Part shown: positions 38,639-53,579 of the stretch, one piece after another
Layout: the number at the start of each line of letters is the position of its first letter
Numbering within the stretch: the first letter of the stretch is position 1
From: an uncultured Flavobacteriales bacterium
GTDB taxonomy: Bacteria; Bacteroidota; Bacteroidia; Flavobacteriales_G; Salibacteraceae
Length of the DNA stretch: 64,000 nt
Reading direction: 5' to 3'
Assembly: GCA_937121175.1 (NCBI GenBank)
Contig: CAKZKD010000039.1
Span: forward strand, 1-64,000
Program-made: the position numbers and the translations under genes
The notes under the pieces: generated by a model
Database searches by the model: none
What the model was told of the DNA's origin: nothing
Seen by the model: the letters and a program-made list of their open reading frames with translations, nothing else

Positions 38639-39238
38639 ATGAACATTCAAGAAATTTTATCCGTTACGCTAATCTTATTTTCCGTGATTGACATTGTTGG
38701 TTCGATTCCCATCGTAATCGATTTACGCAAAAAAGAAGGACATATCGAATCGTTGAAAGCCACCGTAGTTTCAGGAGTATTAATGATTGTATTCCTTTAC
38801 GTTGGGGCTAGTATCCTTAGCCTTTTTGGACTCGACCAACACTCGTTTGCCATTGCTGGAGCTATTATCATGTTTTTTATTGCAGTTGAAATGATTTTAG
38901 GCATCACCCTTTTTCGTTCAGACCCTACCTCGAAGGGAATTGGTTCTATTGTTCCTCTTGCTTTTCCGTTAATCGCTGGCGCAGGAACACTTACCACGAT
39001 TTTATCGTTGCGAGCTGTGTATTTACCTACCAATATTCTCATTGGAATTATTGTTAACCTGGTAATCATTTACATCGTACTTAAGTCAACCAATTTCTTA
39101 GAACGTAAGCTAGGCCCGGGTGGTTTTTTGGTACTTCGAAGAGTTTTTGGGATCATACTTTTAGCAATTTCAGTAAAGATTTTTAAAGAAAATATTCTGC
39201 TTACCTTCCAAGAATTTGTTAAAGGACTAACCTTGTAA
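38639..39238 (+). CDS. MarC/NAAT-family membrane protein
   Basis: A 199-residue inner-membrane protein with six predicted helices, the MarC (UPF0056) length. Family features are VTLILFSVIDIVGSIPI at the N-terminus, GAIIMFFIAVEMILGI and the conserved IVPLAFPLIAGAGTLTTI. Members were once linked to multiple antibiotic resistance; transport function is not proven. I start at ATG 38639 and drop three codons encoded by the upstream repeat. Confidence 0.9.
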   Translation: MNIQEILSVTLILFSVIDIVGSIPIVIDLRKKEGHIESLKATVVSGVLMIVFLYVGASILSLFGLDQHSFAIAGAIIMFFIAVEMILGITLFRSDPTSKGIGSIVPLAFPLIAGAGTLTTILSLRAVYLPTNILIGIIVNLVIIYIVLKSTNFLERKLGPGGFLVLRRVFGIILLAISVKIFKENILLTFQEFVKGLTL

Positions 39239-39287
39239 CCTACTAGATTTAATTACTTTAGAGGCCTAAAACAAATTAAATCTAATT

Positions 39288-40310
39288 ATGAAAGTACTTA
39301 AAATTATTATCGGAATTGTGGTGGTCGTTGCAGTTCTAGGCGTTGGCTATTTAGCCATGCTGCCTGCAAACTACAAAGTGGAACGAAGCACAGAAATCAA
39401 TGCTCCACAAGAATTGGTTGCTGAACATTTGGCAAAATTCTCTGAATGGGAAAACTGGAGTCCATGGAAAGCCAAAGATCCAGATGCTGCGTACACCTAC
39501 GAAGGTGAAGACGGTGCAGTTGGTTCAAAAATGAGTTGGGTAACCAGTTTAGAACCAGACAATGAAAACCAAATTGGCGAAGGTGGAATGGAAATTACGG
39601 AATCGTCTGCAACATCGGTAAAATACAAACTGTGGTTTGTAAAACCTTGGGAAATGACTTCTATGGGTGGTTTTAACTTGTCTGAAGAAGGTGGAGTTAC
39701 GAAAATTACTTGGTATGATACTGGCGATTTACCATTTATGGCAAGGCCAATGGGAAAAATGATGGATGAAATGATTGGTCCAGATTTCGATGAAGGTTTA
39801 GCAAAATTAAAAGCCCATGTTGAAGAGCATGCCGCCAACATGAAAACCGATTACATAGTTGAAGAAGTAGAGGTGGAATCCGCTCCTTATTATTCCATTA
39901 CTGATAGTGTAATTGTGGAAGAAATTGGAAATTCTACCCGAAAAATGATGACTACACTTATGACATTTGCCGGTTCAAACGGAATCGAAATTGCTGGAGC
40001 ACCTTTTACTATGTATCATTCTTGGGATGGAAAATCTACCAAAATGCAGTGTGCAATTGCGGTAGCAGACAATTCGAAAGAAGGTTCTGATGGAATTTCT
40101 TCGGGAACTACTTATGCTGGAAAAACACTTAGAACTGTTAAAGTTGGTAGCTACAAAAATGGAGAAGAGCCTCATAATGCAATTGCAGATTTCGCAGAAA
40201 AAAACGGAATTGAAATCGCAGGAATGCCTTGGGAGGTTTATATCGCTGGTCCAGCAAATGAGCCAGACACAACCAAATGGGTAACCGAAATTTATTACCC
40301 TATTAACTAA
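39288..40310 (+). CDS. SRPBCC plus GyrI-like effector-binding fusion protein
   Basis: A 340-residue protein with an N-terminal transmembrane anchor (about 5-27), a START/SRPBCC ligand-binding domain (about 30-180, including RSTEINAPQELVAEHLAKFSEW and WSPW), then a GyrI-like small-molecule-binding domain (about 195-340, ending PWEVYIAGP...WVTEIYYPIN). The fusion is common in Bacteroidota and is thought to bind hydrophobic ligands; the ligand is unknown. It is followed by a strong terminator. Confidence 0.85.
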   Translation: MKVLKIIIGIVVVVAVLGVGYLAMLPANYKVERSTEINAPQELVAEHLAKFSEWENWSPWKAKDPDAAYTYEGEDGAVGSKMSWVTSLEPDNENQIGEGGMEITESSATSVKYKLWFVKPWEMTSMGGFNLSEEGGVTKITWYDTGDLPFMARPMGKMMDEMIGPDFDEGLAKLKAHVEEHAANMKTDYIVEEVEVESAPYYSITDSVIVEEIGNSTRKMMTTLMTFAGSNGIEIAGAPFTMYHSWDGKSTKMQCAIAVADNSKEGSDGISSGTTYAGKTLRTVKVGSYKNGEEPHNAIADFAEKNGIEIAGMPWEVYIAGPANEPDTTKWVTEIYYPIN

Positions 40311-40327
40311 TTAATTTTTTTTAAAAG

Positions 40328-40361
40328 AAAGCCCGTATTTTGAGTAATACGGGCTTTTTTT
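40328..40361 (+). terminator. Rho-independent terminator after the SRPBCC/GyrI-like gene
   Basis: A perfect 12-bp stem AAAGCCCGTATT/AATACGGGCTTT with a 6-base loop is followed by four more T. It ends only 5 bases before the GTG chosen for the next gene, so the two units are packed edge to edge. Confidence 0.88.
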
Positions 40362-40366
40362 GTGCC

Positions 40367-41305
40367 GTGAATATTCCGTCGCCCATACAAAAACTAGAAA
40401 GTGATTTACTTTCCGAAAAGCAAATTGACCTGTGGGTTAAGCGAGACGACCTTATCCACGAAACTATTTCTGGAAATAAATGGCGGAAACTAAAATGGAA
40501 CATTGAAAAAGCCAAAAACAATAAAAAATCAATCCTCCTCACCTTTGGGGGTGCATTTTCTAATCACATTGCCGCAACTGCTCATGCTTGCAAACAAGCT
40601 GGAATAAAATCTATTGGAGTTATTCGCGGAGAGCGAATTGAGCCATTAAACCCTACTCTACTAAAAGCACAAGAAGACGGAATGCAACTACATTTCGTTT
40701 CTCGGGAGGATTATGGCCGCAAAAAAGACGACGATTTCGTGCTTGGCCTCCGAAATAAATTTGGAAACTTTCATTTGGTACCTGAAGGAGGTGCTAATTA
40801 CTATGGGGTAATGGGTTGTATGGAAATACTGAAGGAAGTTGACCTTAATCTTGATTTCATTGCAACTTCTGCCGGAACTGGAACTACTGCCGCCGGGTTA
40901 CTTATGACAGCCAAAGCAAATCAACAGGTTCTGGTGTTTTCTGGACTCAAAGGAGGTGATTTTTTGAGCACTGATATTAAACACCTTATCAATTACACCA
41001 CCTTTAGTGCTGAACATACAGAAGAAGTTCTGGAACACCTAAGTTTAAATTCCGACTTTCATTTTGGTGGTTTTGCCAAAATAACTCCTGAACTGGTATC
41101 CTTTGCCAATGCGTTTTATACTCAATTCAAGATACCGCTTGACCTTATTTACACGGCTAAACTATTTTTCGGCTTGTTCGATTTAATTCGCAAAGACAAA
41201 TTCAATCCCAACACCAAAATTATGGCACTGCACACCGGTGGGCTACAAGGCAATTCTGGTTTCGAAAAGAAGCTAAAGAAATTAGGAATTCAGTTGAACT
41301 ATTGA
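40367..41305 (+). CDS. ACC deaminase / D-cysteine desulfhydrase family PLP enzyme
   Basis: A 312-residue fold-type II PLP enzyme. The Schiff-base lysine is in ETISGNKWRKLKWN (about 45-58), followed by LTFGGAFSNHIAATAHAC and the phosphate-binding TSAGTGTTAAGLL (about 175). These match the 1-aminocyclopropane-1-carboxylate deaminase/D-cysteine desulfhydrase group; the exact substrate cannot be read off. I start at GTG 40367, because the TTG further upstream (40340) lies inside the terminator hairpin and adds non-family residues. The start is uncertain by a few codons. Confidence 0.88.
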   Translation: MNIPSPIQKLESDLLSEKQIDLWVKRDDLIHETISGNKWRKLKWNIEKAKNNKKSILLTFGGAFSNHIAATAHACKQAGIKSIGVIRGERIEPLNPTLLKAQEDGMQLHFVSREDYGRKKDDDFVLGLRNKFGNFHLVPEGGANYYGVMGCMEILKEVDLNLDFIATSAGTGTTAAGLLMTAKANQQVLVFSGLKGGDFLSTDIKHLINYTTFSAEHTEEVLEHLSLNSDFHFGGFAKITPELVSFANAFYTQFKIPLDLIYTAKLFFGLFDLIRKDKFNPNTKIMALHTGGLQGNSGFEKKLKKLGIQLNY

Positions 41306-41339
41306 GCCGTATTGATTTTCTTTGGCTAAAAGATAAATA

Positions 41340-42884
41340 GTGGCCATCAACAAGTCAAAAATTTTAAAATTAGCACTCTTCGCAACCGGACTTTCTGGTA
41401 TTGTAGCAGAGTACATCCAATCTACCTTGGCTACTTATTTTTTGGGCGATTCCATTTTTCAATGGACTATGATTCTCTCTTCTATGCTCTTTGCAATGGG
41501 AGTTGGCAGTAGAATTAGTGCCCGTTTTAAAGACCAAATCCTCGAAAAATTTCTGTGGGCCGAATTCTCTTTGTCCTTACTAACTTCTTGCGCTGCTCTG
41601 ACCACCTATGTAGCTATGGGCTATTCGGCTTATGTAGCGGTTTTTATTTATGCTTTTGCCTTGCTCATCGGACTATTGATTGGTATGGAAATACCACTGG
41701 TTACCCGCGTAAATGAAGAAAATGAAGAACTGAGAACCAACATTGCCGGTGTAATGGAAAACGACTACTACGGCAGTTTACTGGGTGGTATTTTCTTCGT
41801 TTTTGTGGGCTTGCCTTACTTGGGCTTAACCTATACGCCCTTTGTTCTAGGTGCAACTAACCTGAGTGTTGCACTTTTTTTACTCTGGAAAACCAAAAAA
41901 TCCATTACGCCCAATCACTTAAAAGCATTTTACGTAGTTATTCCTAGCCTCATTGTTTTGCTCTCGTTTTTGGCCATTAATGCAGAACAAATTGTGTTAC
42001 ATGGAGAACAAAAACGATACGGCGATAAAGTGATTTTTTCGGAGCAAACGCGCTATCAAAAAATAACGATTACACAGTACAAAGAACACTATTGGCTCTA
42101 TCTGAACGGTAGCAAACAACTGAGCACCTTCGACGAATGGCTTTACCACGAACCATTGGTTCATCCTGCAATGCAACTCACCAAAACACCAAAAAATGTA
42201 TTGATATTAGGTGCAGGAGACGGCTGTGCAATTCGCGAAGTGGTAAAATATCCAGAAGTAGAAAAGGTGACACTAGTAGATATTGACCCAGAAATGACCA
42301 ACATTGGAAAAACCAATTCCATATTTATTTCCATGAACGACAGCGCATATTATCACCAAAAAGTAGAGGTAATTAATCAAGACGCTTTTCAATATCTAGA
42401 AGAAGAACAGCAATTTTTTGACGTGGTAATATTGGATTTCCCAGACCCAAAAAGCATTGATTTGAACCGTGTTTATACTAAAGAATTTTATCAATTGTGC
42501 TACAATGCGCTTCGGCCAAATGGTGTAATTGTAACCCAAGCAGTGAGTCCGTACTACACTGCGGCTGCCTACAAATCAATTGAAAAAACAGTTCAAGCAG
42601 CTGGTTTTAATGTATTGCCCATTCACAATCATGTGTATTCGTTTGGCGAATGGGGCTGGGTAATTGGTTCAAAAAAATTGAGTACCGAAGAAATGAAAAG
42701 CATTTTGACGAAATCTCCTTTCAGAAACGATATTGAGGTTCAATGGATAAACCAAGAGAGCATGCAACTCATGACATCTTTTGGCAAAGAGCTATTTATA
42801 AAAGATTCTGTTGAAGTAAATACCGTGCACAACCCGGTTCTGTATCGTTATTACTTAGACGGTGCGTGGGCAAAATATCTGTAG
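41340..42884 (+). CDS. Membrane-bound spermidine synthase-like aminopropyltransferase (paralog 1)
   Basis: A 514-residue protein with about seven N-terminal transmembrane helices (to about residue 215) fused to a spermidine-synthase domain. The catalytic domain keeps YHEPLVHPAM, the AdoMet-binding LILGAGDGCAIRE, LVDIDPEMT and the catalytic Asp in VVILDFPDPKSIDLNRVYTKEFY. It should transfer aminopropyl groups from decarboxylated AdoMet at the membrane. The start is GTG 41340. It heads a three-gene plus-strand operon (one base to the next gene). A paralog (45463-46998) points toward it from the opposite operon. Confidence 0.9.
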   Translation: MAINKSKILKLALFATGLSGIVAEYIQSTLATYFLGDSIFQWTMILSSMLFAMGVGSRISARFKDQILEKFLWAEFSLSLLTSCAALTTYVAMGYSAYVAVFIYAFALLIGLLIGMEIPLVTRVNEENEELRTNIAGVMENDYYGSLLGGIFFVFVGLPYLGLTYTPFVLGATNLSVALFLLWKTKKSITPNHLKAFYVVIPSLIVLLSFLAINAEQIVLHGEQKRYGDKVIFSEQTRYQKITITQYKEHYWLYLNGSKQLSTFDEWLYHEPLVHPAMQLTKTPKNVLILGAGDGCAIREVVKYPEVEKVTLVDIDPEMTNIGKTNSIFISMNDSAYYHQKVEVINQDAFQYLEEEQQFFDVVILDFPDPKSIDLNRVYTKEFYQLCYNALRPNGVIVTQAVSPYYTAAAYKSIEKTVQAAGFNVLPIHNHVYSFGEWGWVIGSKKLSTEEMKSILTKSPFRNDIEVQWINQESMQLMTSFGKELFIKDSVEVNTVHNPVLYRYYLDGAWAKYL

Positions 42885-42885
42885 C

Positions 42886-43941
42886 ATGTGGTTGTTTGGT
42901 AAACACACGGATATTGCGTTTTTATTTGTTCCAGTCTGGCTCACATGGATTATTGCATTTCTGATTCCAACGGAAACCCTCAATGCTGAAATCCCGCTTT
43001 GGTTTTGGGTAGTTTTCGTTCTTCTAATTGATGTCGGCCATGTTTGGAGTACCTTATTCAGAACCTACCTCGAAAAACAAGAAAATAGATTGCACCAACG
43101 CATTTTAGGCCTCGCCCCAATTGTAAGTTTTGTAATGCTTTTTTTATTCGCTTTCGAGTCTATCACTTGGTTTTGGCGCATAATGGCCTACCTGGCGTTA
43201 TTTCATTTTGTAAAACAGCAATACGGTTTTTTTGCGCTATACAGTTACAAGGCGTGCATACCCAAATTAAAACGGATATTGAACGACAAATTCATATTGT
43301 ACCTCAGCATGCTTTTTCCGATTCTATATTGGCACTTCCACCAACGGGAATTTGCTTGGTTTATGCAAGGCGATTTTTTCAATTTCCAATTGTTTCCTGA
43401 TTTAGTTTGGAATCTTATGGTAGCAGTTTATTGGCTACTCATCTTAGCTTGGGTTGTGGAAGATATTTGGCTTGCGAAGAAGCACGAATATGCGATTTCC
43501 GTTGGACGGATATTGTGGTTGCTAAGTACAGCAGTTAATTGGTATTTGGGCATTGTGTTTTTTAATTCTGACCTAGTTTTTACCATGACTAATGTGGTTG
43601 CGCATGGCATTCCTTACGTAGTTTTAGTGGTAATGTATCAGCAGACCAAACGTAAGCAAAGTAAAAAAGCAGCCTACACTCAGCTAGCTAGTGTAATTGT
43701 AGGTGGAGCGATTTTGCTTGGTTTTGTAGAGGAATATTTATGGGATTTTTTGATTAATCACGATAAAATTGCATTATTTATATCTGCATTTGAATATCCA
43801 GAATTAAGCCCTGCCGTACAAGCGTTTTGTATAGCATTACTAGCTTTACCGCAGGTAGTACATTATGTTCTAGACGGTTTTATTTGGAAAATGAACGCTA
43901 AAAATCCGCATTTAAAAACATTATTTAAAACCAATGGATAG
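42886..43941 (+). CDS. Polytopic membrane protein with conserved-looking histidines, unknown
   Basis: A 351-residue protein with about nine or ten transmembrane helices. I start it at ATG 42886, one base after the synthase stop; the longer frame overlaps it. Helix-edge histidines occur in DVGHVWSTLFRTYLE, LFHFVKQQYGF, VAHGIPYVV and VVHYVLDGFIWK, a pattern that recalls membrane di-iron or haem enzymes, but no named family is recognised. Its 3' end overlaps the FAD protein gene by 8 bases, so it works with an aminopropyltransferase and a flavoprotein in one operon. Confidence 0.65.
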   Translation: MWLFGKHTDIAFLFVPVWLTWIIAFLIPTETLNAEIPLWFWVVFVLLIDVGHVWSTLFRTYLEKQENRLHQRILGLAPIVSFVMLFLFAFESITWFWRIMAYLALFHFVKQQYGFFALYSYKACIPKLKRILNDKFILYLSMLFPILYWHFHQREFAWFMQGDFFNFQLFPDLVWNLMVAVYWLLILAWVVEDIWLAKKHEYAISVGRILWLLSTAVNWYLGIVFFNSDLVFTMTNVVAHGIPYVVLVVMYQQTKRKQSKKAAYTQLASVIVGGAILLGFVEEYLWDFLINHDKIALFISAFEYPELSPAVQAFCIALLALPQVVHYVLDGFIWKMNAKNPHLKTLFKTNG

Positions 43942-45442
43942 GCGGACATTTCTAAAAATTGGAGGAGCGTTTTTTGTACTTAGCTCTAGCTGCGATTTTA
44001 AAGACAAAACGCCTCAGAATAAACTATTGAGCTACGGAATTACGCTGGATTCGAACCGAAAAATTGGCCACATTGCTCGAAAAGCAATACTAAAACCGGT
44101 AGTAAAACAACTAAAGACTGACATGCTAATTGTTGGTGGAGGAATTGCTGGACTTGCCGCTGCTTGTTCGCTAAAAGGAAGAGCTTTTACCTTGTGCGAA
44201 ATGAATGAAACTCTTGGCGGAACTTCAGGAGCAGTTAACATAAACGGAACGCTATTTGGCCAAGGCGCTCATTACGATTTATCTTATCCAGAATATTATG
44301 GAAAAGAGGCTTTAGAGCTACTCAAAAAACTAAACGTAATTGAGTGGAGCGCGTCAAATAAGCGTTGGGATTTTGTAGATAAACAATACCTTATTAACCC
44401 AAATAAAGAAGAGCAATGCTATGCTGGAGGCAGCTTTTTACCTTCGGTTCTGCCTCCTGGCGAACTCAAAACGAATATGTTGGATTTGTTGCGGCCATAC
44501 ATTGGTAAAACCAAACTTCCTACCACTGAAGTTTCACCAGAATTGCATCACTTGGATAAAATATCGTTCTACGATTATCTTAAGAAATACCTGCCAATTA
44601 CCGACGAGTTTATTGCCTCTATTGACTACCAAATGTTAGACGATTATGGTGGAACGAGCATGGAGGTTTCGGCACTTGCAGGAATTCACTATTACACTTC
44701 ACGCCCTTATTTTAGTCAACCCGAACCAGAGCTTTTTTCACCTCCAGAAGGCAACTATTATTTTATCCGTAAAATGGAAAAGACGCTTACTGCCCAATCC
44801 ATAAAAACGGGGCATTTAATTACGGGAATCGAGAATAAAGGAGACCATTGGGTCACCCAAGCATGGGATGTAAAGGCAGAAAAGAAAATTGAATTTAAAA
44901 GCAATAACATCATTTATGCAGGCCAAAAGCACTTGTTGAAATACTTGTATCCTGCAGCTCATGAACAGTTTGAAGACACCAACTATGCTCCTTGGGTAGT
45001 TGTGAATATTGAGCTAACGGAGTCGTTAGGCAACAATCATTATTGGCAGAACGATTACTTATCTGCAAATAGTCAGTTTTTGGGTTTTGTAGATTCAGGC
45101 GCTCAGAAAAACGCGAATGGAAATGTGCTCACCGCCTATTATTGTTACCCGGGTATATATCACCACATGGTAGAGGAAATTGAAAATAACCCGAGACAAA
45201 TTGTACAAGAAACCATTGGTTATTTATCGAAATATTACCAAACTGAAATTGAATCTAAAGTAAAGCACGCTTATGTGAAATTACTTGGACATGCAATGCC
45301 AGTTCCCACACCGGGGTTTATTACCAAACCAAAACCTACAGAAAAAAGTACCCTAACTTTTGCCGGAGTTGATACCGGTAGATTGCCATTAATGTTGGAT
45401 GCCTTAGACTCTGGCATTCAAGCAGCAAAGCTGTCTATTTAG
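43934..45442 (+). CDS. FAD-dependent amine-oxidase-like lipoprotein
   Basis: A 502-residue flavoprotein. The N-terminus MDRRTFLKIGGAFFVLSSSC carries a Tat-like RRTFLK followed by a lipobox Cys20, so it is probably exported folded with FAD and lipid-anchored. The dinucleotide-binding fold is LIVGGGIAGLAAACSLKG (about 65-83) with ETLGGTSG. The C-terminal LTFAGVDTGRLPLMLDALDSGIQAA is the FAD-contact segment of amine-oxidase-type enzymes. Placement after an aminopropyltransferase suggests polyamine or modified-amine oxidation; this is inference. The end lies 20 bases from the convergent operon. Confidence 0.8.
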   Translation: MDRRTFLKIGGAFFVLSSSCDFKDKTPQNKLLSYGITLDSNRKIGHIARKAILKPVVKQLKTDMLIVGGGIAGLAAACSLKGRAFTLCEMNETLGGTSGAVNINGTLFGQGAHYDLSYPEYYGKEALELLKKLNVIEWSASNKRWDFVDKQYLINPNKEEQCYAGGSFLPSVLPPGELKTNMLDLLRPYIGKTKLPTTEVSPELHHLDKISFYDYLKKYLPITDEFIASIDYQMLDDYGGTSMEVSALAGIHYYTSRPYFSQPEPELFSPPEGNYYFIRKMEKTLTAQSIKTGHLITGIENKGDHWVTQAWDVKAEKKIEFKSNNIIYAGQKHLLKYLYPAAHEQFEDTNYAPWVVVNIELTESLGNNHYWQNDYLSANSQFLGFVDSGAQKNANGNVLTAYYCYPGIYHHMVEEIENNPRQIVQETIGYLSKYYQTEIESKVKHAYVKLLGHAMPVPTPGFITKPKPTEKSTLTFAGVDTGRLPLMLDALDSGIQAAKLSI

Positions 45443-45462
45443 TCTCTTGGATTAGTTAGTGT

Positions 45463-46998
45463 CTAGAAATTATTCCAATCGCCATTCAATTGATACTGGT
45501 ATAAAACGGGATTATTTAACGTGTTGATTTCTATTCTTGAAGTATCGCTCGTAGGCTTTCCAAAATGCAACATCATGTGCATAGCTTCTTGGTTTAGCCA
45601 CCGGGTTCTTATTGAATTAAAATCTTGTTTTTTTAGATACTTTTTAAGCTGCTGTACACTTCCTTTTTTCGTGCCGATTACCCAAGACCATTCTCCCATT
45701 GAGAGCACATGGTTGTGCAACGGCAATACATTAAAACCTGAGCTTTGCATGGTTTTTTTAATACACTCAAAAGCCTTTGTAGCCAAATACGGATTTCCAG
45801 ATTGGGTAATCATAGCCCCATTGGGTCGCAAATGCAAGCGCACCATTTGATAGAATTCTTGGGTGTATAATTTATTCAAATCAACACCTTTTGCGTCAGG
45901 CAAATCGACAACAATGAGGTCATACAATTGCTCCGATTTTTGCAAAAAGGTAAACCCATCTGCGTTTATTACTTGTACTTTTTCATTGCTTAGTGAACTA
46001 CCATTTGCTTTTACAAATGGAGGATATTTAGCGCCTAAATTGGTCATTTCTGGGTCTAAATCCACCAAAGTAATGGACTCTACATCAGGATATTTGAGTA
46101 GCTCCTTTACGTTAAAACCATCGCCACCACCAATTACCAAAACTTGTTTTGGGTGCTTTACCAAAGCAACTACTGGGTGTATCATTGGTTCGTGATAGAG
46201 GTACTCGTCCAACGTGGTCATTTGTAAATTACCGTTGATGTACAACCAATGCTCATTTAGCCAAGTTGTAACTACCAATTTTTGATACTTAGATTCTACA
46301 ACATGCACAATCTTATCCTTAAACCGGCTTTGCTCTCCATACAGTTTTATGTTATCCGACTGAATAAATCCAACAGAAAGTAATACTATGACCGCAGCCA
46401 CAACGCCGAAAAATTGTGTCTTAATGGCTTTGATTTGCTTCCAAAAGACAAATACAACCGCAAACGCAGCCAATAAATTGAAGGCGCCAAATACAAAAGC
46501 AGCATTTTTAATTCCTAATACCGGCAAGGCAAAAAACGCAAAAGCAAGTCCTCCAATCAAACTACCGATATAGTCATAGGACATGATACTGCTGATGTTT
46601 CTGCTCAGCTTTTCGTAGGGCTCATTTAGTCGAGTAACCAATGGTATTTCGAATCCTATTGCACAACCAACTGCTGCCGAACAGCCATAAACCAACAAAT
46701 GAATGTATTGTGTTTGACCAGCTAATCCGTAAATGATTAATGGTGCTAAGCATATCATAAGACTTAGCGCTATTTCTACCGATAGAAATACAAATAATAG
46801 ATTTTTGTTGACGCGAGCGCTCAATCGACTTCCAACGCCCATGGAAAATAGCATGATAGAAAGCACCAATGTCCATTGAACAATAGTATCTCCAATAAAA
46901 TAAGAAGCTAAAGTTGAGAATATGAATTCGGCCACAAGACCCGAAACACCTGTAGCAAAAATGGCTGCCTTAAGAAATACCGAGTGCTTGTTGGTCAC
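45463..46998 (-). CDS. Membrane-bound spermidine synthase-like aminopropyltransferase (paralog 2)
   Basis: A 511-residue paralog of 41340: about seven transmembrane helices followed by a spermidine-synthase domain with YHEPMIHPVV, LVIGGGDGFNVKE, LVDLDPEMT and IVVDLPDAKGVDLNKLYTQEFY. The last motif reads DLPDAK where paralog 1 has DFPDPK, but the catalytic Asp is kept. The start is GTG 46998, directly after the DUF350 stop (no gap). It is the last gene of the PspA-speD operon and so probably uses the decarboxylated AdoMet made by SpeD. Confidence 0.9.
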   Translation of the reverse strand: MTNKHSVFLKAAIFATGVSGLVAEFIFSTLASYFIGDTIVQWTLVLSIMLFSMGVGSRLSARVNKNLLFVFLSVEIALSLMICLAPLIIYGLAGQTQYIHLLVYGCSAAVGCAIGFEIPLVTRLNEPYEKLSRNISSIMSYDYIGSLIGGLAFAFFALPVLGIKNAAFVFGAFNLLAAFAVVFVFWKQIKAIKTQFFGVVAAVIVLLSVGFIQSDNIKLYGEQSRFKDKIVHVVESKYQKLVVTTWLNEHWLYINGNLQMTTLDEYLYHEPMIHPVVALVKHPKQVLVIGGGDGFNVKELLKYPDVESITLVDLDPEMTNLGAKYPPFVKANGSSLSNEKVQVINADGFTFLQKSEQLYDLIVVDLPDAKGVDLNKLYTQEFYQMVRLHLRPNGAMITQSGNPYLATKAFECIKKTMQSSGFNVLPLHNHVLSMGEWSWVIGTKKGSVQQLKKYLKKQDFNSIRTRWLNQEAMHMMLHFGKPTSDTSRIEINTLNNPVLYQYQLNGDWNNF

Positions 46999-47871
46999 CT
47001 ATCCAAAACTGAGACAAATGAGCACAGAGCCGCCAATATAGCCGAAAGCTTCAATAATTGCCGCGCCAACATTTGGAGTTTCTTGGTTTACAATTTCGTC
47101 TGTAAGATTTCTTCCTGGCAATAAAATTTTGTCGGTCATGAAACGCGCTGCCGGCAATAGCAACAGACCCAAGCCTGTTTCAATTCCAAGGTTTTCGGCA
47201 ACACCAATCCAGTTTTCCGCATGCATTTCGGTTCCATGACGCACCAAATTCGCTAGGGCTATAATGGCGCCAGCATAGCCGATTCCAGCAGCGACATTGT
47301 TCTTTACTATCTCTTCGTGAATATTATAAGAAGTCATTTTATTGTAAACGAATTCTACCAATAACAACACTACTTGAGCTACTAACCACAGAACAATTAT
47401 CTCTAAAAACCCATCCGGATTTTCTACCAAAACACCGTGAATTATTAACCCGTTAGCAATGCAAATTGCAGCTTCAATAACTCCCGTTCCAACGTTTTGG
47501 TCTTGAATAATTTCCTTACGCAAATCAAAAGACCTCAGAACCAATTTATCCGATATAAATATGGACAGATTGAGTAGCAAAATGGACAGCAAACCGTAAA
47601 TAAAAATGGAAATTAGGTTGTCTAAAATGTGTCCAAAATCGTCACCAACATACAAAGACCAAATGGCAATAAGCAAACCTACATAGTAACCTGTATTGGC
47701 TATTGCAAAGGCTAGGTTATCTTTCTCCACCAGCTCGTGGTCAACGTTTATTCCTCGGTTTATGAGTTTGTAAATGTATCTGCCGATAAAGAACAAGGCA
47801 AAACTGGCCACCAAATAAATTATGGAGGTTATAATACTATCTAAAGTTGCGAGCATATTCATAATCAACAC
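46999..47871 (-). CDS. Double DUF350 membrane protein (YjfL-like)
   Basis: A 290-residue protein of two DUF350 units in tandem, about eight helices in all. Each unit carries the family pattern: DNLAFAIANTGYYVGLLIAIW then IIQDQNVGTGVIEAAICIANGLII, and NNVAAGIGYAGAIIALANLV then IVNQETPNVGAAIIEAFGYIGGS. E. coli YjfL is a single-unit relative beside a PspA paralog. Function is unknown. Two more in-frame Met codons at 47862 and 47856 could be the true start. Gap to the upstream lipoprotein gene is 3 bases. Confidence 0.87.
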   Translation of the reverse strand: MLIMNMLATLDSIITSIIYLVASFALFFIGRYIYKLINRGINVDHELVEKDNLAFAIANTGYYVGLLIAIWSLYVGDDFGHILDNLISIFIYGLLSILLLNLSIFISDKLVLRSFDLRKEIIQDQNVGTGVIEAAICIANGLIIHGVLVENPDGFLEIIVLWLVAQVVLLLVEFVYNKMTSYNIHEEIVKNNVAAGIGYAGAIIALANLVRHGTEMHAENWIGVAENLGIETGLGLLLLPAARFMTDKILLPGRNLTDEIVNQETPNVGAAIIEAFGYIGGSVLICLSFG

Positions 47872-47874
47872 TAT

Positions 47875-48591
47875 TTATTTACCAAATCCTGAGCCTCTAC
47901 TTCCAAATCCTGAACGTCCTCTACTAGACGACCACCCTGACTTTGAAGCGCGTCTTTTAAAGAAATCTGGACGTGACTTTCGGGTCGCAGCGGAGTTTGT
48001 ACCATACTTAGAAGAGCCATTGGTTCTAGGGCCATAATATCCCGACCTACCGTAGTGGTTGTCTCTATAAGTTCTGTAATCGCTTCGGTAAACAGGCCTA
48101 TTCATAAAACCAAACATGTGCGACATAAACATGTACTGGCCATAAAATGCCCAGAAAGACGACCCATTGTGCGTGCGCCATTCCCCGTATTTCTTGTCTC
48201 CCACATATTGATAACCAGCAGGAGCTGCATTTTTTTCGAGCTTACCGTCTTTTTTGTACACCAAGATCATTCCCAGGTTATTCTCGTTTTTTGTAAAGAA
48301 ATCTTCACCCACCTCAAACCATTCACTGGTCGATTCTTCTGGTTTCCCTTCTTCATCTTCCAAAATGACTTTATACTTGTGTTTGTAGGTCTTAAAGAAG
48401 TTTCCTTCTAGATCCATATCCTCAAGAATTATGGCAAAATTTTGTTTGCTCGAAAACTCAACAATGTAATTGTCAACAGGAGATTTTTTGAATTCTTTTC
48501 CTCCACAGCTCGAAAGCAAAAGGCCAAAAACAAACAAAGACAGCCAAGCAAATGGTGTCTTTGAAAAATTGATATTTAGTACTGATTTCAT
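47875..48591 (-). CDS. Conserved-type lipoprotein with Arg/Ser/Gly-rich tail
   Basis: A 238-residue lipoprotein (lipobox LSSC at about residues 26-29). The globular part includes FAIILEDMDLEGNFFKTYKHKYKV and WFEVGEDFFTKNENNLGM. An aromatic WAFYGQYMFMSHMFGF stretch and a low-complexity Tyr/Arg and then Ser/Gly/Arg tail follow. I recall similar lipoproteins in DUF350/DUF4178/spermidine-synthase clusters, but no function. The basic tail could bind acidic lipid or LPS. Tightly spaced in the operon (4 bases after DUF4178). Confidence 0.7.
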   Translation of the reverse strand: MKSVLNINFSKTPFAWLSLFVFGLLLSSCGGKEFKKSPVDNYIVEFSSKQNFAIILEDMDLEGNFFKTYKHKYKVILEDEEGKPEESTSEWFEVGEDFFTKNENNLGMILVYKKDGKLEKNAAPAGYQYVGDKKYGEWRTHNGSSFWAFYGQYMFMSHMFGFMNRPVYRSDYRTYRDNHYGRSGYYGPRTNGSSKYGTNSAATRKSRPDFFKRRASKSGWSSSRGRSGFGSRGSGFGK

Positions 48592-48595
48592 AAGT

Positions 48596-49123
48596 TTACT
48601 TTGGCAGGATATTGGAAAATTCGAACTCTTTTACATAAGACCCTTTCGCTGCGGAAAACTCCTCTTCGCCCCATCGGTCTATCGAAATAAAATCTTGTTC
48701 GTTCTCATATACCCAATTCACAAATTTGGACCAATTTTCTTCATCATCATCATTTTCGCCACAATATCCTTGACCCGAACTTTTTCTGTGATAGGTTTTG
48801 TTCTCAAAAACCAATTGCTGAGGAGCATCATCTGCGCTTACAATTTGAGAGGCCAGTTTTGGGTCTATCGCATTCATCTCGAGTTTTTTCGAAACCATAC
48901 AAATCAATTCATCGTTATCTTCAACAGACAAATAGCATTTTTCGTCTCCCGAATCCAGTAAGTATTCAATCGACTCAAAGTTATTTCCCCAGTCGTAGTG
49001 ATATACCTTTTTTACTTCCCAAGTTTTCAAAAAATACTCTACCATAAACCCTAGGTTCATTTCGGCAACTGTATAATCGACTTTGGACTCTTTCTTCTTT
49101 CCAAAGAAATCGAATAATCCCAT
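48596..49123 (-). CDS. DUF4178 protein
   Basis: A 175-residue soluble protein. The DUF4178 core is visible as LGFMVEYFLKTWEVKKVYHYDWG, EYLLDSGDEKCYLSVEDNDEL and LVFENKTYHRKSSGQGYCG, a small beta-barrel-like domain. The N-terminal MGLFDFFGKKKESK is amphipathic and basic, as expected for membrane association. The family recurs beside PspA, DUF350 and spermidine synthase genes. Molecular role unknown. Three bases after speD. Confidence 0.85.
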   Translation of the reverse strand: MGLFDFFGKKKESKVDYTVAEMNLGFMVEYFLKTWEVKKVYHYDWGNNFESIEYLLDSGDEKCYLSVEDNDELICMVSKKLEMNAIDPKLASQIVSADDAPQQLVFENKTYHRKSSGQGYCGENDDDEENWSKFVNWVYENEQDFISIDRWGEEEFSAAKGSYVKEFEFSNILPK

Positions 49124-49126
49124 TTC

Positions 49127-49498
49127 TTAATTGTTTTTAGTTTCAATATTCACTTCCGTTCCACGGCTAACTTTCCTCGAACTTACACGCTGAGCATTCA
49201 ATCCATTTTTCAATACCTCATGAGCAGCGCTGTAGTCCATTTTTTCGTTACATGTAAAAAAATCTACCGCCGCATAATTGTGTTCTGGCCAAGTATGAAT
49301 GGCCAAATGACTTTCGGCAACTACCACCACACCAGTAACCCCTTGAGGAGAAAATTTATGAAAAACCGATTTAATAATTGTTGCGGAGGCTTTATTTGCC
49401 GCTTCTAGCATCAAATTCTCCAGTTTAGTTTTATCGTCAAGTATAACTGAAGAACAGTCGTAAAGCTCGATAATAATGTGTAAGCCAAGTCCTTCCAA
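49127..49498 (-). CDS. speD: S-adenosylmethionine decarboxylase proenzyme
   Basis: A 123-residue class 1B AdoMet decarboxylase that makes the aminopropyl donor for polyamine synthesis. The precursor self-cleaves before Ser63 in VVAESHLAIHTWPE to form the pyruvoyl cofactor; that serine, His68 and the later FFTCNE cysteine are all present. Length is normal. It lies between the 53-residue membrane protein (2 bases) and DUF4178 (3 bases), tying dcAdoMet supply directly to the two membrane aminopropyltransferases of this locus. Confidence 0.95.
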   Translation of the reverse strand: MEGLGLHIIIELYDCSSVILDDKTKLENLMLEAANKASATIIKSVFHKFSPQGVTGVVVVAESHLAIHTWPEHNYAAVDFFTCNEKMDYSAAHEVLKNGLNAQRVSSRKVSRGTEVNIETKNN

Positions 49499-49500
49499 GA

Positions 49501-49662
49501 TTAAATACTCCCCTTCTGAAATTTCCGGTACAACCAGAAGCCTACTAAAAATAGTATGATTGGAGTGCTAAAGTACCAAACCAGTTTGACTACCGAAATC
49601 AGAACGGTAATCAAACCGATTAGGAAAATAATCTCAATTATTGTAGCAATAGAAATTCTCAT
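49501..49662 (-). CDS. 53-residue two-transmembrane protein between pspA and speD
   Basis: ATG at 49660-49662 opens a 53-codon frame ending TAA at 49501-49503. The protein begins MRISIATIIEIIFLIG and has two hydrophobic stretches (about 5-25 and 28-45) and a basic end YRKFQKGSI. The spacing is exact for a gene: 3 bases after the pspA stop and 2 before the speD start. It may be a small membrane partner of PspA, as PspB or PspC are in enterobacteria, although no sequence similarity is claimed. Confidence 0.75.
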   Translation of the reverse strand: MRISIATIIEIIFLIGLITVLISVVKLVWYFSTPIILFLVGFWLYRKFQKGSI

Positions 49663-49665
49663 CGC

Positions 49666-50382
49666 TTATGCGTTTCCACCTTTAGCAGCCGCCATTTTAG
49701 CTTTTAATGCAGCTAGTTTATCATCAGCACCAACACTAGTATCGCCAATTGCGCTATCAATTTCATCGTCTAATGAACGGCTTTCGTTTGCAATGTCTCC
49801 ATACGCTTCGGCGAGTGCTTCTTCTTGATTCACCTTATCTTTCATACGCTCAAGCATGGAAATGGTATCCGATGAATCGATTGCAGCCATCTGCTTATTC
49901 AAGTTTTTGGTAGAACTAGCTACTTTTACTCGAGCCTTTAGCGTTTTCAATTCATTTTCCCAAGAGCTAATTTTAGAGCGAATTTTTTTAATGTTAGCAT
50001 CCAATTTGGCAACGTCGCTATCGAATTTAGCCTGCTCTTTTTTCGAACGCTCCACATGACTGTCGCATTCCGCTTTTTTAGTTAATGCTTCACCAGCTAA
50101 CCTGTCCGCTTCGCCAGCATCCATTTGACCAGCTTCTGCTCTTTGCAAAAGCATCATTGCTTTTTTCTCATAATCAGCAGCACGGTCTTCTTGTTCTTTA
50201 ATTTCATTTTTTGCCCGAATAGCCATAGCCTTTACTTCAGCCAATGCTTTTAAGGATTTTTCAAGGTCAGACTTCATGTCTCTAATACCTTGTTCGGTCA
50301 TTTTTATTGGGTCTTCCAATTTATCGATTACCGAATTTGTTTCTGCTTTACCTAGCGTAAATAATCTTTTGAATAAGCTCAT
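49666..50382 (-). CDS. pspA: PspA/IM30 family membrane-stress protein
   Basis: A 238-residue, mostly coiled-coil protein. The N-terminal amphipathic helix MSLFKRLFTLGKAETNSVIDKLEDP is followed by MTEQGIRDMKSDLEKSLKALAEVKA, which is diagnostic for PspA/IM30/Vipp1. Central heptad-rich helices run to about 185, and an Ala/Lys-rich C-terminus follows. It resembles the YjfJ branch, given the YjfI-, YjfL- and DUF4178-type neighbours. ESCRT-III-like proteins of this family bind and stabilise damaged inner membrane. Confidence 0.92.
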   Translation of the reverse strand: MSLFKRLFTLGKAETNSVIDKLEDPIKMTEQGIRDMKSDLEKSLKALAEVKAMAIRAKNEIKEQEDRAADYEKKAMMLLQRAEAGQMDAGEADRLAGEALTKKAECDSHVERSKKEQAKFDSDVAKLDANIKKIRSKISSWENELKTLKARVKVASSTKNLNKQMAAIDSSDTISMLERMKDKVNQEEALAEAYGDIANESRSLDDEIDSAIGDTSVGADDKLAALKAKMAAAKGGNA

Positions 50383-50394
50383 AATGTGTTGTTT

Positions 50395-50799
50395 TTAAAG
50401 TTTAGAAAATTTGATTAATTCGTCAGAATATTCTGACAGCAACAGACTCAAAGAATTCAATGAACCCTCTAGTTCGTTTAAGTCTAAATTGGCGATTTGT
50501 AAGGTGTCTCTGAAAATTACTTTTTTACCCGACTCATCTAACACAAATGCTCCGTGTATAATGTCTCGGTTTTTTTGAAGCAAACTTTGAAATACCTCTG
50601 AAGAACCATTGTCTATTTGAATGAGGTATTGTTCAATAATTAATATGGGGTCTGCACAACCTACCACGCAATTTTTAATTCCTGAAGATTCGTCTTCGAT
50701 TACCAATAACTGGTCTTCTTCGTTTGTACCTGTAATGGTATAACCCAGGTCTAAAACGTAATCTTTGATTTTATTAAAATGATTTTCCATAACTGACAC
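50395..50799 (-). CDS. YjfI/YbjN-like protein, upstream partner of pspA
   Basis: A 134-residue acidic protein resembling DUF2170/YjfI and the YbjN/Tir-chaperone fold (VGCADPILIIEQYLIQID, a helix NRDIIHGAFVLDESGKKVIFRDTL, and a C-terminal amphipathic helix). In E. coli, yjfI precedes the pspA paralog yjfJ in the same way. The start may be GTG 50799, whose first base is the last base of the upstream TAG (TAGTG), or ATG 50790. Twelve bases separate it from pspA. Family call is moderate. Confidence 0.7.
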   Translation of the reverse strand: MSVMENHFNKIKDYVLDLGYTITGTNEEDQLLVIEDESSGIKNCVVGCADPILIIEQYLIQIDNGSSEVFQSLLQKNRDIIHGAFVLDESGKKVIFRDTLQIANLDLNELEGSLNSLSLLLSEYSDELIKFSKL

Positions 50800-50882
50800 T
50801 ATTTAAGGAGCTTTAAATTATTCCATTCAAAATTAAAATTCTGCTCCGTTTGCGCCTTAGGAAATGCCAGTTCTTTAGCCAT
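50799..50882 (-). CDS. Possible 27-residue leader ORF of the pspA-speD operon
   Basis: ATG at 50880-50882 opens a 27-codon frame (MAKELAFPKAQTEQNFNFEW and seven more residues, ending KLLK) that stops at TAG 50799-50801. An AAGGAGG Shine-Dalgarno sequence, unusually strong for Bacteroidota, lies about 9 bases upstream. The TAG overlaps the GTG of the YjfI-like gene by one base. It may be a small protein or a leader that couples translation. The peptide is not membrane-like and no homolog is recognised. Confidence 0.45.
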   Translation of the reverse strand: MAKELAFPKAQTEQNFNFEWNNLKLLK

Positions 50883-50948
50883 TTTTAAGGTCCTCCTTTT
50901 TATTATTCATTTTTTGTGTTTTTAATTTCATGAAGCTAAAGTACTAAT

Positions 50949-51008
50949 ATTTTTAGCAATGCTATATTTTTTAGCAAATATTTTGAAAAGTGATAATTTT
51001 TTTAGTAA
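50949..51008. promoter_or_regulatory. Repeated ttttagcaa boxes between the pspA operon and the XRE gene
   Basis: TTTTAGCAA occurs at 50951-50959 and 50969-50977, with a near copy TTTTAGTAA at 51000-51008. The first box sits in a palindrome TAGCA-A-TGCTA (50954-50964). This lies in the 153-base space between divergent genes, where an XRE repressor would bind. The spacing of 18 and 31 bases is not fully regular. Confidence 0.45.
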
Positions 51009-51035
51009 TTCGCCTTTGAACTAAAAGATAGTGAA

Positions 51036-51749
51036 ATGTCCAAAATAGGCTCAAACATTAGGAAGATTCGAACTGTAAAGGGAATTAGTCAAAGCCAGTT
51101 TGCTGAATTGTTTTCTCTTAACCGAGCTCGAATAGGTGCGTATGAGGAAGGAAGAGCAGAACCGAAGATTGATGTTGTTATAGAAATTGCTAAATATTTT
51201 AGCATACCGTTAAACGATATTTTCGTGAAAGACCTCACCGTAAACCAATTGGCACATTTTGATTTGATTCAATCTTCGCCAAACGATGAAGGAAAAAAGC
51301 AACCTAATTTCAATCAACTCTACTTTTTGAGCGCGGCTCAAGTGCTAAATAAAAACTTATTGGAAAAGGCAATGGAAACGCCAGAAGACTTATACCGGTT
51401 TTCTTTTCCGGGCGCAACCAACGGAGGAAACCTATGGATTGAGTTATCAGGAGTAAAATTAATTTGTGGTGAGCAATTGCATCCCTTCGGTGTAATTGTA
51501 TCAAACAAAGAGGCGCTTAAATCAAACTCTACTGTTTTGGCAATAACCAAAGACCAAATTTATTTGGGAAATTATATCAGTGGAAAGAGTAACCTACGCA
51601 TGAATATTGGTGGAACAGAACAAGAAATCACCAAAGTCAACTATTCGTTTTCGGTGAAGTTATTGGTACAAAAATCGGTTGCTTCTAGTTTGTCTTTAGA
51701 CCAACGATTGGCCCAAATTGAAGCTAGAATCTCGAAAATAGAAGGTTAG
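51036..51749 (+). CDS. XRE-family transcriptional regulator, divergent from the pspA operon
   Basis: A 237-residue regulator. The N-terminal Cro/CI helix-turn-helix is SNIRKIRTVKGISQSQFAELFSLNRARIGAYEEGRAEPKIDVVIEIA in outline (residues 5-55). The C-terminal 120 residues (NLWIELSGVKLICGEQLHPFGVIV to YLGNYIS) look like a degenerate LexA/S24-type domain without an evident Ser-Lys dyad, so it may sense a ligand rather than self-cleave. A terminal coiled coil (LDQRLAQIEARISKIE) suggests dimers. Position makes it the likely local regulator. Confidence 0.85.
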   Translation: MSKIGSNIRKIRTVKGISQSQFAELFSLNRARIGAYEEGRAEPKIDVVIEIAKYFSIPLNDIFVKDLTVNQLAHFDLIQSSPNDEGKKQPNFNQLYFLSAAQVLNKNLLEKAMETPEDLYRFSFPGATNGGNLWIELSGVKLICGEQLHPFGVIVSNKEALKSNSTVLAITKDQIYLGNYISGKSNLRMNIGGTEQEITKVNYSFSVKLLVQKSVASSLSLDQRLAQIEARISKIEG

Positions 51750-51882
51750 GTTTTCGCTATCCGATTAAATTGGTCAGTTTCGGTGGATAAATTACCACTA
51801 CTGGCAAAATACTTTATTTTCGATACACTCCGCCAAGAGCGGAGCACCCAATCTGACAGTATTTTTTCTCCCATTATTAAGA

Positions 51883-52473
51883 TCAGGTTAAGTTACGCTT
51901 CATAAAACCAAATGCGCCTCCACATAGCCCACCGCAAATGTGACCAAACTGAGATATGTTATCCGCAGTAAAACTATTAACAACCTCATTTCCAATGAAA
52001 ACAATGCTAACTAAGATGAACGTCAGCGGTATTTCTTTTCGTTTCATATTCACTAATGAGGAAAGCACTATGAACATAAACACAATTCCACTTGCGCCAA
52101 CGATAACATTCTGAAAAAGTAAGTTGTTTAGCAAGCCAGTGACCAACGCAGTGCAGCCTGTCATGAAAAGTAATTCTTTGGCTCCATATTTTTCTTCTAA
52201 AAGAGGGCCAAGCATGAGTAAATAGATGGAATTTGCCGCCAAATGTGACCAATCAGCGTGGCAAAATATGTACGTAAAAAATCGGTAACTGTCTAGTAAC
52301 GAAAAATTTGGGTACAGCGCAAACGCTTGATTAATCCAACCGGCAGTGATGTAATTGAACACAACAAACCCTAATGAAATGAATGTAAAAGTTAGCGTAA
52401 GCGGAGCATTGTAAGTCACTTTCCACTTTCCGCTTTTGCTCGTCAACAGTTGTTCTTTTCCGATGCCCTCCAT
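51883..52473 (-). CDS. Rhomboid family intramembrane serine protease
   Basis: A 196-residue, six-helix membrane protease. The catalytic Ser128 is in IVGASGIVFMF and His178 in FGHICGGLCGGAFGF, the expected dyad. HADWSHLAANSIYLL (about 72-86) is the second conserved block. It would cleave transmembrane substrates in the inner membrane. The substrate is unknown. It stands alone on the minus strand; the 133 bases between it and the XRE gene hold no clear signal. Confidence 0.93.
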   Translation of the reverse strand: MEGIGKEQLLTSKSGKWKVTYNAPLTLTFTFISLGFVVFNYITAGWINQAFALYPNFSLLDSYRFFTYIFCHADWSHLAANSIYLLMLGPLLEEKYGAKELLFMTGCTALVTGLLNNLLFQNVIVGASGIVFMFIVLSSLVNMKRKEIPLTFILVSIVFIGNEVVNSFTADNISQFGHICGGLCGGAFGFMKRNLT

Positions 52474-52531
52474 ACAATTACAAAAGTAGTGCTAACCAAC
52501 ACTTTAGTGTTTGCAATACGATTGGGGAATT

Positions 52532-52562
52532 CAAATGCCCAAATACCACGTTTTTACATTTG
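52532..52562 (+). promoter_or_regulatory. Predicted promoter of the glucosaminidase gene
   Basis: TTG at 52532-52534 and TACATTTG at 52555-52562 match the -33 and -7 elements of Bacteroidetes with a 20-base spacer. Transcription would begin near 52569, 30 bases before the TTG start chosen for the gene. Confidence 0.6.
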
Positions 52563-52598
52563 TGCGTTAGGCACGAAATTGGTCTGATTGCAATTGTT

Positions 52599-53579
52599 TT
52601 GAAATTACTTAAACTTATAGTCTTATTGTTCTGCACTAGTTTTTTGATAGTGCCAATAACTGCTCAAACCCGCCAAACTCCAAAACAATACAAGGAAAAA
52701 TTTGACCAAGACGCCGTTGCTGAAATGATTAAAAGTGGTGTTCCGGCCAGTATTACCCTTGCACAAGGAATGCTCGAAAGCGATTACGGAAATTCTGCAC
52801 TTGCCAAAAAAGCACGCAATCATTTTGGCATCAAATGCCACTCTAGCTGGACTGGGGGTAAATATTATATGGACGATGACGCAAAAGACGAATGCTTTCG
52901 GGTGTATCCTTCGGTGTATGATTCGTATGTTGACCACTCTGATTTTCTGCACCGGAATCGTCGCTACGCTTTTCTATTTGACCTCAAACAAACCGACTAC
53001 AAAGGCTGGGCAAAAGGCCTCAAAAAAGCCGGTTACGCCACGAACCCAAAGTACCCCGACTTACTGATTCGAATCATTGAAGAAAACGAATTGTACCGCT
53101 ACGATAAAATGAGCAAAGGAGACCTAAAATCGCTTGGAGCCAGCTCAAAAGGTACTGTTGGAAATCCAACTAACCCATTAACTACTCCTCCTAAAAAAGG
53201 AATGCAAACCTCTGCCCCTGCTGCTTCGTCGAATTCGGGAACGACTATTACGCTCTCTAAAAACAACATCAAATTTGTAAAAAGTCAGGCGGGAGATACG
53301 CCTGATAAAATTGCTAAACGGTACAATTTGGGAAGATGGCAAATCTGCAAATACAACAACCTAAAACGTCGAACTAAACTTTCGACAGGTACCATAATTT
53401 ATCTTCAACCTAAACGAAGTAAGTTTCGAGGAAAGCAAAAATTTCATTCCGTAAAAAAAGGAGACACCCTTTGGAAAATCAGTCAGATGTACGGTGTAAA
53501 ATTGACTGCCTTGAGGCGGAAAAACAACTTAGAAAAAGGACAAGTGATTAAGGTAGGGCAAAAGATTAAGTTGAAATAA
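52599..53579 (+). CDS. LysM-containing peptidoglycan N-acetylglucosaminidase
   Basis: A 326-residue exported cell-wall hydrolase. I start it at TTG 52599 because this gives a clean signal peptide (MKLLKLIVLLFCTSFLIVPI, cleaved near TAQ); the longer frame starts inside the promoter. The GH73-type glucosaminidase domain (about 25-165) has GVPASITLAQGMLESDYGNS with the catalytic Glu and NHFGIKCH. Two LysM-like repeats follow a Pro/Thr/Ser linker (about 225-275 and 280-326, with HSVKKGDTLWKISQMYGV the clearer). It remodels peptidoglycan in the periplasm. The stop overlaps the convergent dehydrogenase by 14 bases. Confidence 0.9.
   Translation: MKLLKLIVLLFCTSFLIVPITAQTRQTPKQYKEKFDQDAVAEMIKSGVPASITLAQGMLESDYGNSALAKKARNHFGIKCHSSWTGGKYYMDDDAKDECFRVYPSVYDSYVDHSDFLHRNRRYAFLFDLKQTDYKGWAKGLKKAGYATNPKYPDLLIRIIEENELYRYDKMSKGDLKSLGASSKGTVGNPTNPLTTPPKKGMQTSAPAASSNSGTTITLSKNNIKFVKSQAGDTPDKIAKRYNLGRWQICKYNNLKRRTKLSTGTIIYLQPKRSKFRGKQKFHSVKKGDTLWKISQMYGVKLTALRRKNNLEKGQVIKVGQKIKLK

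Follow-up and report, generated by a model that had tools for sequence, protein, structure and literature searches.

Gene clusters in which an AdoMet decarboxylase (AdoMetDC) is combined with DUF350 and with a fusion of a major facilitator superfamily domain to spermidine synthase (MFS-SpdSyn) were reportedly described in 2019 by Li, Kurihara, Kim, Liang and Michael, who are said to have proposed an acceptor other than putrescine and not to have identified it. Ravi et al. 2024 (PMC11237479) described a CesT/Tir-PspA operon that encodes a seven-transmembrane (7TM)-spermidine-synthase fusion along with DUF350, DUF4178 and a novel lipoprotein. A parallel operon in the same paper combines a GspS-like ATP-grasp ligase with DUF350, DUF1190 and a potassium channel, and 'aminopropylation of other substrates' is credited there to Li et al. 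2019. Pederick et al. 2023, as cited in PMC12270671 and PMC10948618, identified YgiC and YjfC as peptide-spermidine ligases. The subject of the present analysis is a locus at positions 41,340–51,749 of a 64,000-nucleotide stretch (the window) from an uncultured Flavobacteriales bacterium of the Salibacteraceae (GenBank assembly GCA_937121175.1, contig CAKZKD010000039.1). Judged by sequence, it is a real, conserved two-operon variant of the published type. We suggest that the main task of its membrane aminopropyltransferases (APTs) is the aminopropylation of the C-terminal lysine of an exported lipoprotein, a reading to which a probability of about 50% can be given. The genes on which this reading depends are the following.

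41340..42884, plus strand: APT1, 7-TM MFS-like domain joined to a spermidine-synthase-type aminopropyltransferase (PF01564, 5e-41; NF002956, 548 bits)
42862..43941, plus strand: MP359, polytopic 359-aa membrane protein (no Pfam, NCBIfam or PDB match)
43934..45442, plus strand: FADox, amine-oxidase-like flavoprotein with a twin-arginine translocation (Tat) signal and a lipobox-like Cys (PF13450, 3e-7; PF01593, 6e-4)
45463..46998, minus strand: APT2, second 7-TM aminopropyltransferase (PF01564, 1e-37)
46999..47871, minus strand: double DUF350 (YjfL-like) membrane protein (PF03994, 2e-50, two stretches)
47875..48591, minus strand: LP238, lipoprotein with lipobox LLSSC and an Arg/Gly/Ser-rich tail ending RGSGFGK, candidate aminopropyl acceptor
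47878..47880, minus strand: codon of the invariant C-terminal Lys of LP238, the proposed modification site
48596..49123, minus strand: DUF4178 protein (PF13785, 4e-20)
49127..49498, minus strand: SpeD, class 1b AdoMet decarboxylase (PF02675, 1e-41; TIGR03330, 142.7 bits against a cut-off of 75.65)

The original prediction had placed all the genes it named correctly, and Pfam, NCBIfam and PDB sequence searches bore out the family names.

The lipoprotein LP238 ends in Gly237-Lys238, and both residues are invariant in 18 aligned homologues of 30–73% identity; lysine is terminal in 23 of the 23 LP238-type proteins. The last residue of APT, MP359, FADox, DUF350, DUF4178, SpeD, PspA and YjfI varies. 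Loci without an LP238-type protein encode a different small exported protein, mostly between DUF4178 and DUF350, which has a terminal lysine too, and these partner proteins are largely unrelated in sequence. The partner in Novosphingobium is 48 aa long and ends in GPSHK, and the endings in Tritonibacter, Ensifer and Gemmatirosa are NRVK, ESGK and RHGK, respectively. The Burkholderia partner, which adjoins speD, has a lipobox and a Gly/Ser tail ending in GSHK. Partners of the second Bacteroidota architecture (type B, described below) mostly end in FYHK or YYHK, and the endings GGK and SFGK occur in L123 and L124. At two loci (L114, L130) the DUF4178 protein itself carries the tail, fused to its end, with the lysine retained. 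By our own count, terminal lysine is present in all 51 module-bearing APT loci with an intact region (51/51), spanning Bacteroidota, Alpha-, Beta- and Gammaproteobacteria and Gemmatimonadota. No C-terminal-Lys small protein was found at L133 and L139, where an APT and a divergent speD occur with no DUF350/DUF4178 module. A tblastn search of the plasmids with LP238 gave no match.

The small-protein open reading frames (ORFs) were picked by eye from short hydrophobic ORFs near the APT, and the last residue was not used as a filter except for L124, L133 and L139. The background frequency of terminal lysine among long ORFs is 16.5% in the Bacteroidota loci and 5.9% in the plasmid and E. coli loci. 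If the six plasmid clusters were independent, lysine endings in 6/6 would be expected with a probability of about 4e-8; they are not fully independent, and this value is a guide only. The C-terminal lysine rule for APT loci is, as far as it can be read from these proteins, new here, and no report of aminopropylated lipoprotein C-termini was found in the literature searched. A lipid, a lipoprotein or a peptide had originally been predicted as the acceptor. Of the three, the evidence now favours the exported lipoprotein most, given the invariance of its C-terminal lysine and the reappearance of this ending in partner proteins of unrelated sequence. Lipoproteins of 510 aa, with last 100 residues that are LP238-like and end in SSGK or GKGK, are encoded at L067 and L022; the L067 operon includes a toxic-anion-resistance (TelA-like) gene.

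A different ending is found beside the ligases. The DUF1190-type lipoproteins next to YjfC/YgiC-type ligases end in Gly-Gly in nine of 13 cases and in Lys in none (0/13). Gly-Gly terminates YgiB (SMGG) and YjfM (HWGG), as well as the lipoproteins of Salmonella, Rhizobium, Pseudomonas, Sulfitobacter, Acinetobacter, Deinococcus and Paracoccus; the other four endings are WGS (Vibrio), SGS (Azospirillum), CCG (Asticcacaulis) and IHA (Sphingomonas). LP238 appears to be distant kin of the DUF1190 family (hhalign E 4e-6, probability 87), with a score of 13.6 bits, below the Pfam cut-off of 22. The DUF1190 family itself was found in 0/296 Bacteroidota genomes. DUF2491 (YjfK) was considered as a homologue of DUF4178 and rejected (hhalign probability 0.2). 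For a peptide-spermidine ligase, the C-terminal carboxylate has to be free; glycine is the residue used by the related glutathionylspermidine synthetase. An aminopropyltransferase would require an amine on a short alkyl chain, such as a C-terminal lysine provides. We infer from the two tails, Lys and Gly-Gly, that they match two chemistries, aminopropyl transfer and ligation, across parallel envelope systems.

The catalytic residues of the enzymes are intact. Residues Q240, Q260, D265, Y269, H270, D316, D348, D366, D369 and Q400 are conserved in 58/58 APT homologues and D294 in 56 of them. Aligned with E. coli SpeE, the APTs share its residues for binding decarboxylated AdoMet (dcAdoMet) as well as both aspartates of the catalytic site (D366, D369). 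The Asp of the SpeE 'LDG' motif is replaced by Asn in 57/58 APTs, and beyond the second Asp the APT segment departs from that of SpeE; both features would fit a changed acceptor. In the AlphaFold2 (AF2) model of APT1, a transmembrane (TM) bundle is followed by a spermidine-synthase fold, and the C-terminal domain matches SpeE structures with a Foldseek E of 3e-15.

Seven hydropathy peaks are present at the N-terminus across the 58 homologues. The loops on the cytoplasmic side have K+R sums of 2.0–2.6 each and those on the opposite side 0.0–0.09. This charge distribution and the odd TM count predict a cytoplasmic N-terminus and a catalytic domain outside the cytoplasm. DSSP merges TM5 and TM6 in the APT1 AF2 model. 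A re-entrant hairpin at this point would leave the parity intact; a single long helix alone would flip it, exposing a Lys-rich loop outside. In a tree of 58 APT sequences, the APT1 (n = 11) and APT2 (n = 10) clades are separate, with support of 100/100 each, and the APT1 clade of the window neighbours the Crocinitomix enzyme. Both clades co-occur in all 10 genomes having APT2, and the locus therefore combines two paralogous branches.

The only SpeD of the genome is located in this locus, and its translation carries the pyruvoyl processing motif ESHLAIHTWPE. Elsewhere in the genome no spermidine synthase was detected except for one marginal PF01564 match (23.7 bits; assembly G000, contig 24, 1308-1559, L030) in a 269-aa frame. 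No homologue of speA or nspC was found in the genome over the cut-offs, in what was not an exhaustive polyamine inventory, and the deoxyhypusine-synthase family (deoxyhypusine/homospermidine route) likewise had no genome match over the cut-offs. A single SpeD in a genome without these routes would agree with a polyamine-independent role of SpeD.

Taken together, the locus may be seen as a membrane-bound protein-modification system. SpeD would produce dcAdoMet in the cytoplasm, and APT1 and APT2 would use it to aminopropylate the C-terminal lysine of LP238 at its epsilon-amine, giving a polyamine-like cationic tail; with two APTs, two aminopropyl units could be attached. The predicted side of the APT catalytic domain, the twin-arginine start of FADox and the lipobox of LP238 suggest that the partners meet in the periplasm. 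A periplasmic catalytic domain would require the export of dcAdoMet, which the 7-TM half of the APTs, MP359 or DUF350 might carry across the membrane. On the simplest guess, the Tat-exported FADox would act together with MP359 to oxidise, trim or remove the aminopropyl tail. A link between the tail and the state of the membrane would be provided by PspA with its CesT/Tir partner, by DUF350 and by DUF4178. In the sister YjfC/YgiC operons, the joining of spermidine to the C-terminal glycine of a related lipoprotein would have a similar outcome. This scheme in full, namely N6-aminopropylation by one or two units of the C-terminal Lys at the outer face of the inner membrane from exported dcAdoMet, with a Lys/Gly-Gly tail code across two systems, is held more tentatively, at somewhat below an even chance.

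Several points weigh against C-terminal lysine modification. The lysine could serve otherwise, for example in peptidoglycan attachment as in Lpp, and its modification is predicted from sequence. Because the sequences are related, the terminal-Lys counts do not represent independent events; proteins ending in K are common in Bacteroidota; and the L124 candidate came from a search limited to K endings. The Gly-Gly rule of the ligase operons has exceptions in 4/13 cases. Use of dcAdoMet by an enzyme in the periplasm would be an unusual arrangement that depends on a hypothetical export step, and a wrong TM count would make the APT catalytic domain cytoplasmic.

Four other explanations were weighed. 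The APTs might aminopropylate an amine-bearing membrane lipid, such as phosphatidylethanolamine or an aminolipid, with the lipoprotein as a sensor or chaperone. Every partner is associated with the membrane, the acceptor pocket of the membrane-bound APT is changed and Flavobacteriales produce amino lipids; however, a lipid acceptor leaves unexplained both the invariant C-terminal Lys on unrelated small exported proteins and the Gly-Gly counterpart beside the peptide-spermidine ligases, and we consider it unlikely.

A peptidoglycan tether of the Braun type, with the lysine as the attachment point of the lipoprotein and the APT acting elsewhere or capping the Lys against tethering, is rather improbable. 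The Lys-tailed proteins are lipoproteins or single-pass membrane proteins, and an exported lipoprotein with a C-terminal Lys is the very design of Lpp. Yet the Lys-tailed protein tracks the APT operon, being undetected at the module-less APT loci L133 and L139, no L,D-transpeptidase was recognised among the mapped genes and the sister ligase operons have Gly-Gly rather than Lys ends.

Ordinary polyamine synthesis, in which membrane-tethered synthases convert putrescine to spermidine, deserves similarly little credence. NCBIfam NF002956 names both proteins polyamine aminopropyltransferase, and the catalytic residues are conserved. Against this, no speA homologue is over the cut-off (a diamine decarboxylase or uptake may still supply putrescine), seven linked membrane genes would be superfluous and such fusions reportedly failed to complement a SpdSyn mutant in the work of Li et al. 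2019, spermidine being absent.

Improbable as well, and placed last, is modification of the same lysine on the pre-lipoprotein before export by a catalytic domain in the cytoplasm, where dcAdoMet is made, as the soluble, ATP-dependent sister ligase YjfC and the K+R of 2.3 directly after TM7 might suggest; the charge distribution, the odd TM count and the Tat export of the FAD partner speak against it.

A conserved neighbourhood, as the original prediction expected, was found: the homologues are grouped in many genomes across Bacteroidota and beyond. The whole gene set and its order recur in Flavobacteriales at about 50–70% protein identity, and rearranged versions occur across Bacteroidota, Proteobacteria and Gemmatimonadota; this recurrence of gene neighbourhoods is far beyond chance. 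Full-length APT fusions were found in 29/395 Bacteroidota genomes of a phylum sample, three more matches being short, and MP359 as a query returned 19 loci. Many Flavobacteriales retain both operons entire, and the closest relatives retain the flanking genes too. Crocinitomicaceae and close kin have one operon, DUF4178-lipoprotein-DUF350-APT-MP359-FADox-SpeD; that of Crocinitomix catalasitica (L049) has a single APT. Plasmid-borne clusters of Proteobacteria and Gemmatimonadota follow the same logic. At L064 (Burkholderia cenocepacia), APT-FADox runs divergently from a set made up of DUF350, DUF4178, speD and a very small lipoprotein with a Lys tail; speD overlaps the lipoprotein region.

Two architectures can be distinguished among the Bacteroidota APT loci. 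Type A features a lipoprotein of 230–260 aa and often PspA/YjfI. Type B is mostly SpeD-DUF4178-small protein-DUF350-APT-FADox-MP359, with PspA not detected and an SPFH protein sometimes near. The predicted PspA-type envelope stress response thus holds in part, since PspA and YjfI accompany type A and neither was detected at the type B loci. FADox and MP359 recur with APTs in distant families; because type B has both and PspA is undetected there, these two proteins belong to the system and PspA is optional. The SPFH (band-7/flotillin-like) protein lies close to the module in some PspA-less loci (L065 3583-4578, L124, L137). A K+ channel gene of the voltage-gated type (TVGYGDVYP filter) lies between DUF4178 and SpeD in relatives (L033 16227-17093, L034 9814-10680, L036, L038, L048 and L019) and is absent from the window. 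A Rhizobium YjfC operon also holds an ion channel (L069 745-1800).

The amine-oxidase likeness of FADox is weak. PF13450 is over the cut-off, PF01593 scores 19.6 against a cut-off of 19.8 bits and the best PDB sequence match is putrescine oxidase 3rha (E = 0.005). The twin-arginine start M[DN]RR is conserved in 16 homologues, and the Tat export and linkage would fit oxidation of an aminopropyl product. For MP359, besides the absence of family matches, the AF2 model (pLDDT 81) gave no PDB fold match (best E 0.74). Five histidines, His60, His115, His158, His248 and His334, are invariant. MP359 homologues also occur without a nearby APT, SpeD or FADox at L041, L042 (Flexithrix dorotheae) and L046, hence a role of MP359 outside the aminopropyl system; in L041 and L042 the homologue adjoins a lipoprotein-like protein of 176–179 aa.

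The remaining features of the locus are listed below.

49501..49662, minus strand: 53-residue membrane protein (no Pfam family)
49666..50382, minus strand: PspA/IM30 family protein (PF04012, 4e-46)
50395..50799, minus strand: YjfI-like protein, CesT/Tir chaperone fold (PF22550 CesT_Tir_1, 8e-56)
50800..50883, minus strand: 27-codon ORF, unsupported as a gene (good Shine-Dalgarno; unconserved)
51036..51749, plus strand: divergent XRE-type regulator (HTH_3, 9e-11)

Neighbouring genes of the plus operon APT1-MP359-FADox have start/stop overlaps. Among the related loci compared, the 53-residue membrane protein has matches in L031–L034 only, the closest relatives, in which the position of the XRE gene is retained. 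The 27-codon ORF had been taken for a member of the minus operon; the nearest relatives have no counterpart 5' of yjfI, and its candidacy as a peptide substrate or leader was dropped too. No gene for a YjfC/YgiC-type ATP-grasp ligase is present among the ORFs of 39000-54000. A PLP-dependent (pyridoxal phosphate-dependent) deaminase-like gene (40340-41305) and a rhomboid protease gene (51883-52473) flank the locus, in the same positions as in L031 and L032.

The locus shares with the second group of Ravi et al. 2024 (PMC11237479) the YjfI-like protein, PspA, the 7TM-APT fusion, DUF350, DUF4178 and a lipoprotein, a putative counterpart of the Ctha_1186 lipoprotein there. A PspA/DUF350/DUF4178/spermidine-synthase neighbourhood, mentioned in the original prediction, is published, and the predicted aminopropylation of a non-putrescine acceptor at the membrane from dcAdoMet is supported, though already proposed there. 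Unlike in that group, SpeD lies here inside the operon, and two APT paralogues and a converging APT-MP359-FADox operon are present. The main text of that paper contains neither the C-terminal Lys rule nor an extracytoplasmic topology.

The likeness to E. coli yjfIJKLMC, also predicted, is confirmed, since yjfI, yjfJ (PspA), yjfK (DUF2491), yjfL (DUF350), yjfM (DUF1190) and yjfC (annotated as a peptide-spermidine ligase) form one gene run. With yjfIJKLMC and ygiBC the locus has in common YjfI, PspA, DUF350, a related lipoprotein and a polyamine-transfer enzyme, with an ion channel in some relatives of both; those operons have an ATP-grasp ligase, a Gly-Gly lipoprotein and DUF2491, whereas APT, Lys and DUF4178 are found here. 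Compared with canonical SpeE, which is soluble and stand-alone, the APTs carry seven N-terminal TM helices and retain the catalytic Asp pair and the dcAdoMet-binding residues. SpeD, a membrane aminopropyltransferase and DUF350 are reportedly common to the 2019 clusters of Li and co-authors, to which the present work adds a specific candidate residue. To our knowledge, aminopropyl units on protein lysine are known only from diatom silaffins, and the enzymes that place them there are not settled. Silaffins (PMC3820600) carry such units on their lysines, two in silaffin-3; unlike LP238 they are eukaryotic, N-methylated and silica related, with modified lysines that are internal, and no homology is claimed. 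If the proposal is true, bacteria would have in this locus an enzyme system that places aminopropyl units on protein lysine. This would be a new type of modification of envelope proteins, and it would tie polyamine chemistry directly to envelope lipoproteins and to membrane maintenance of the PspA type. The gene neighbourhood itself is already published; what is new is a specific acceptor rule spanning two parallel envelope systems, which names a concrete residue in a concrete protein both for the acceptor of the APT fusions and for the substrate of YgiC/YjfC.

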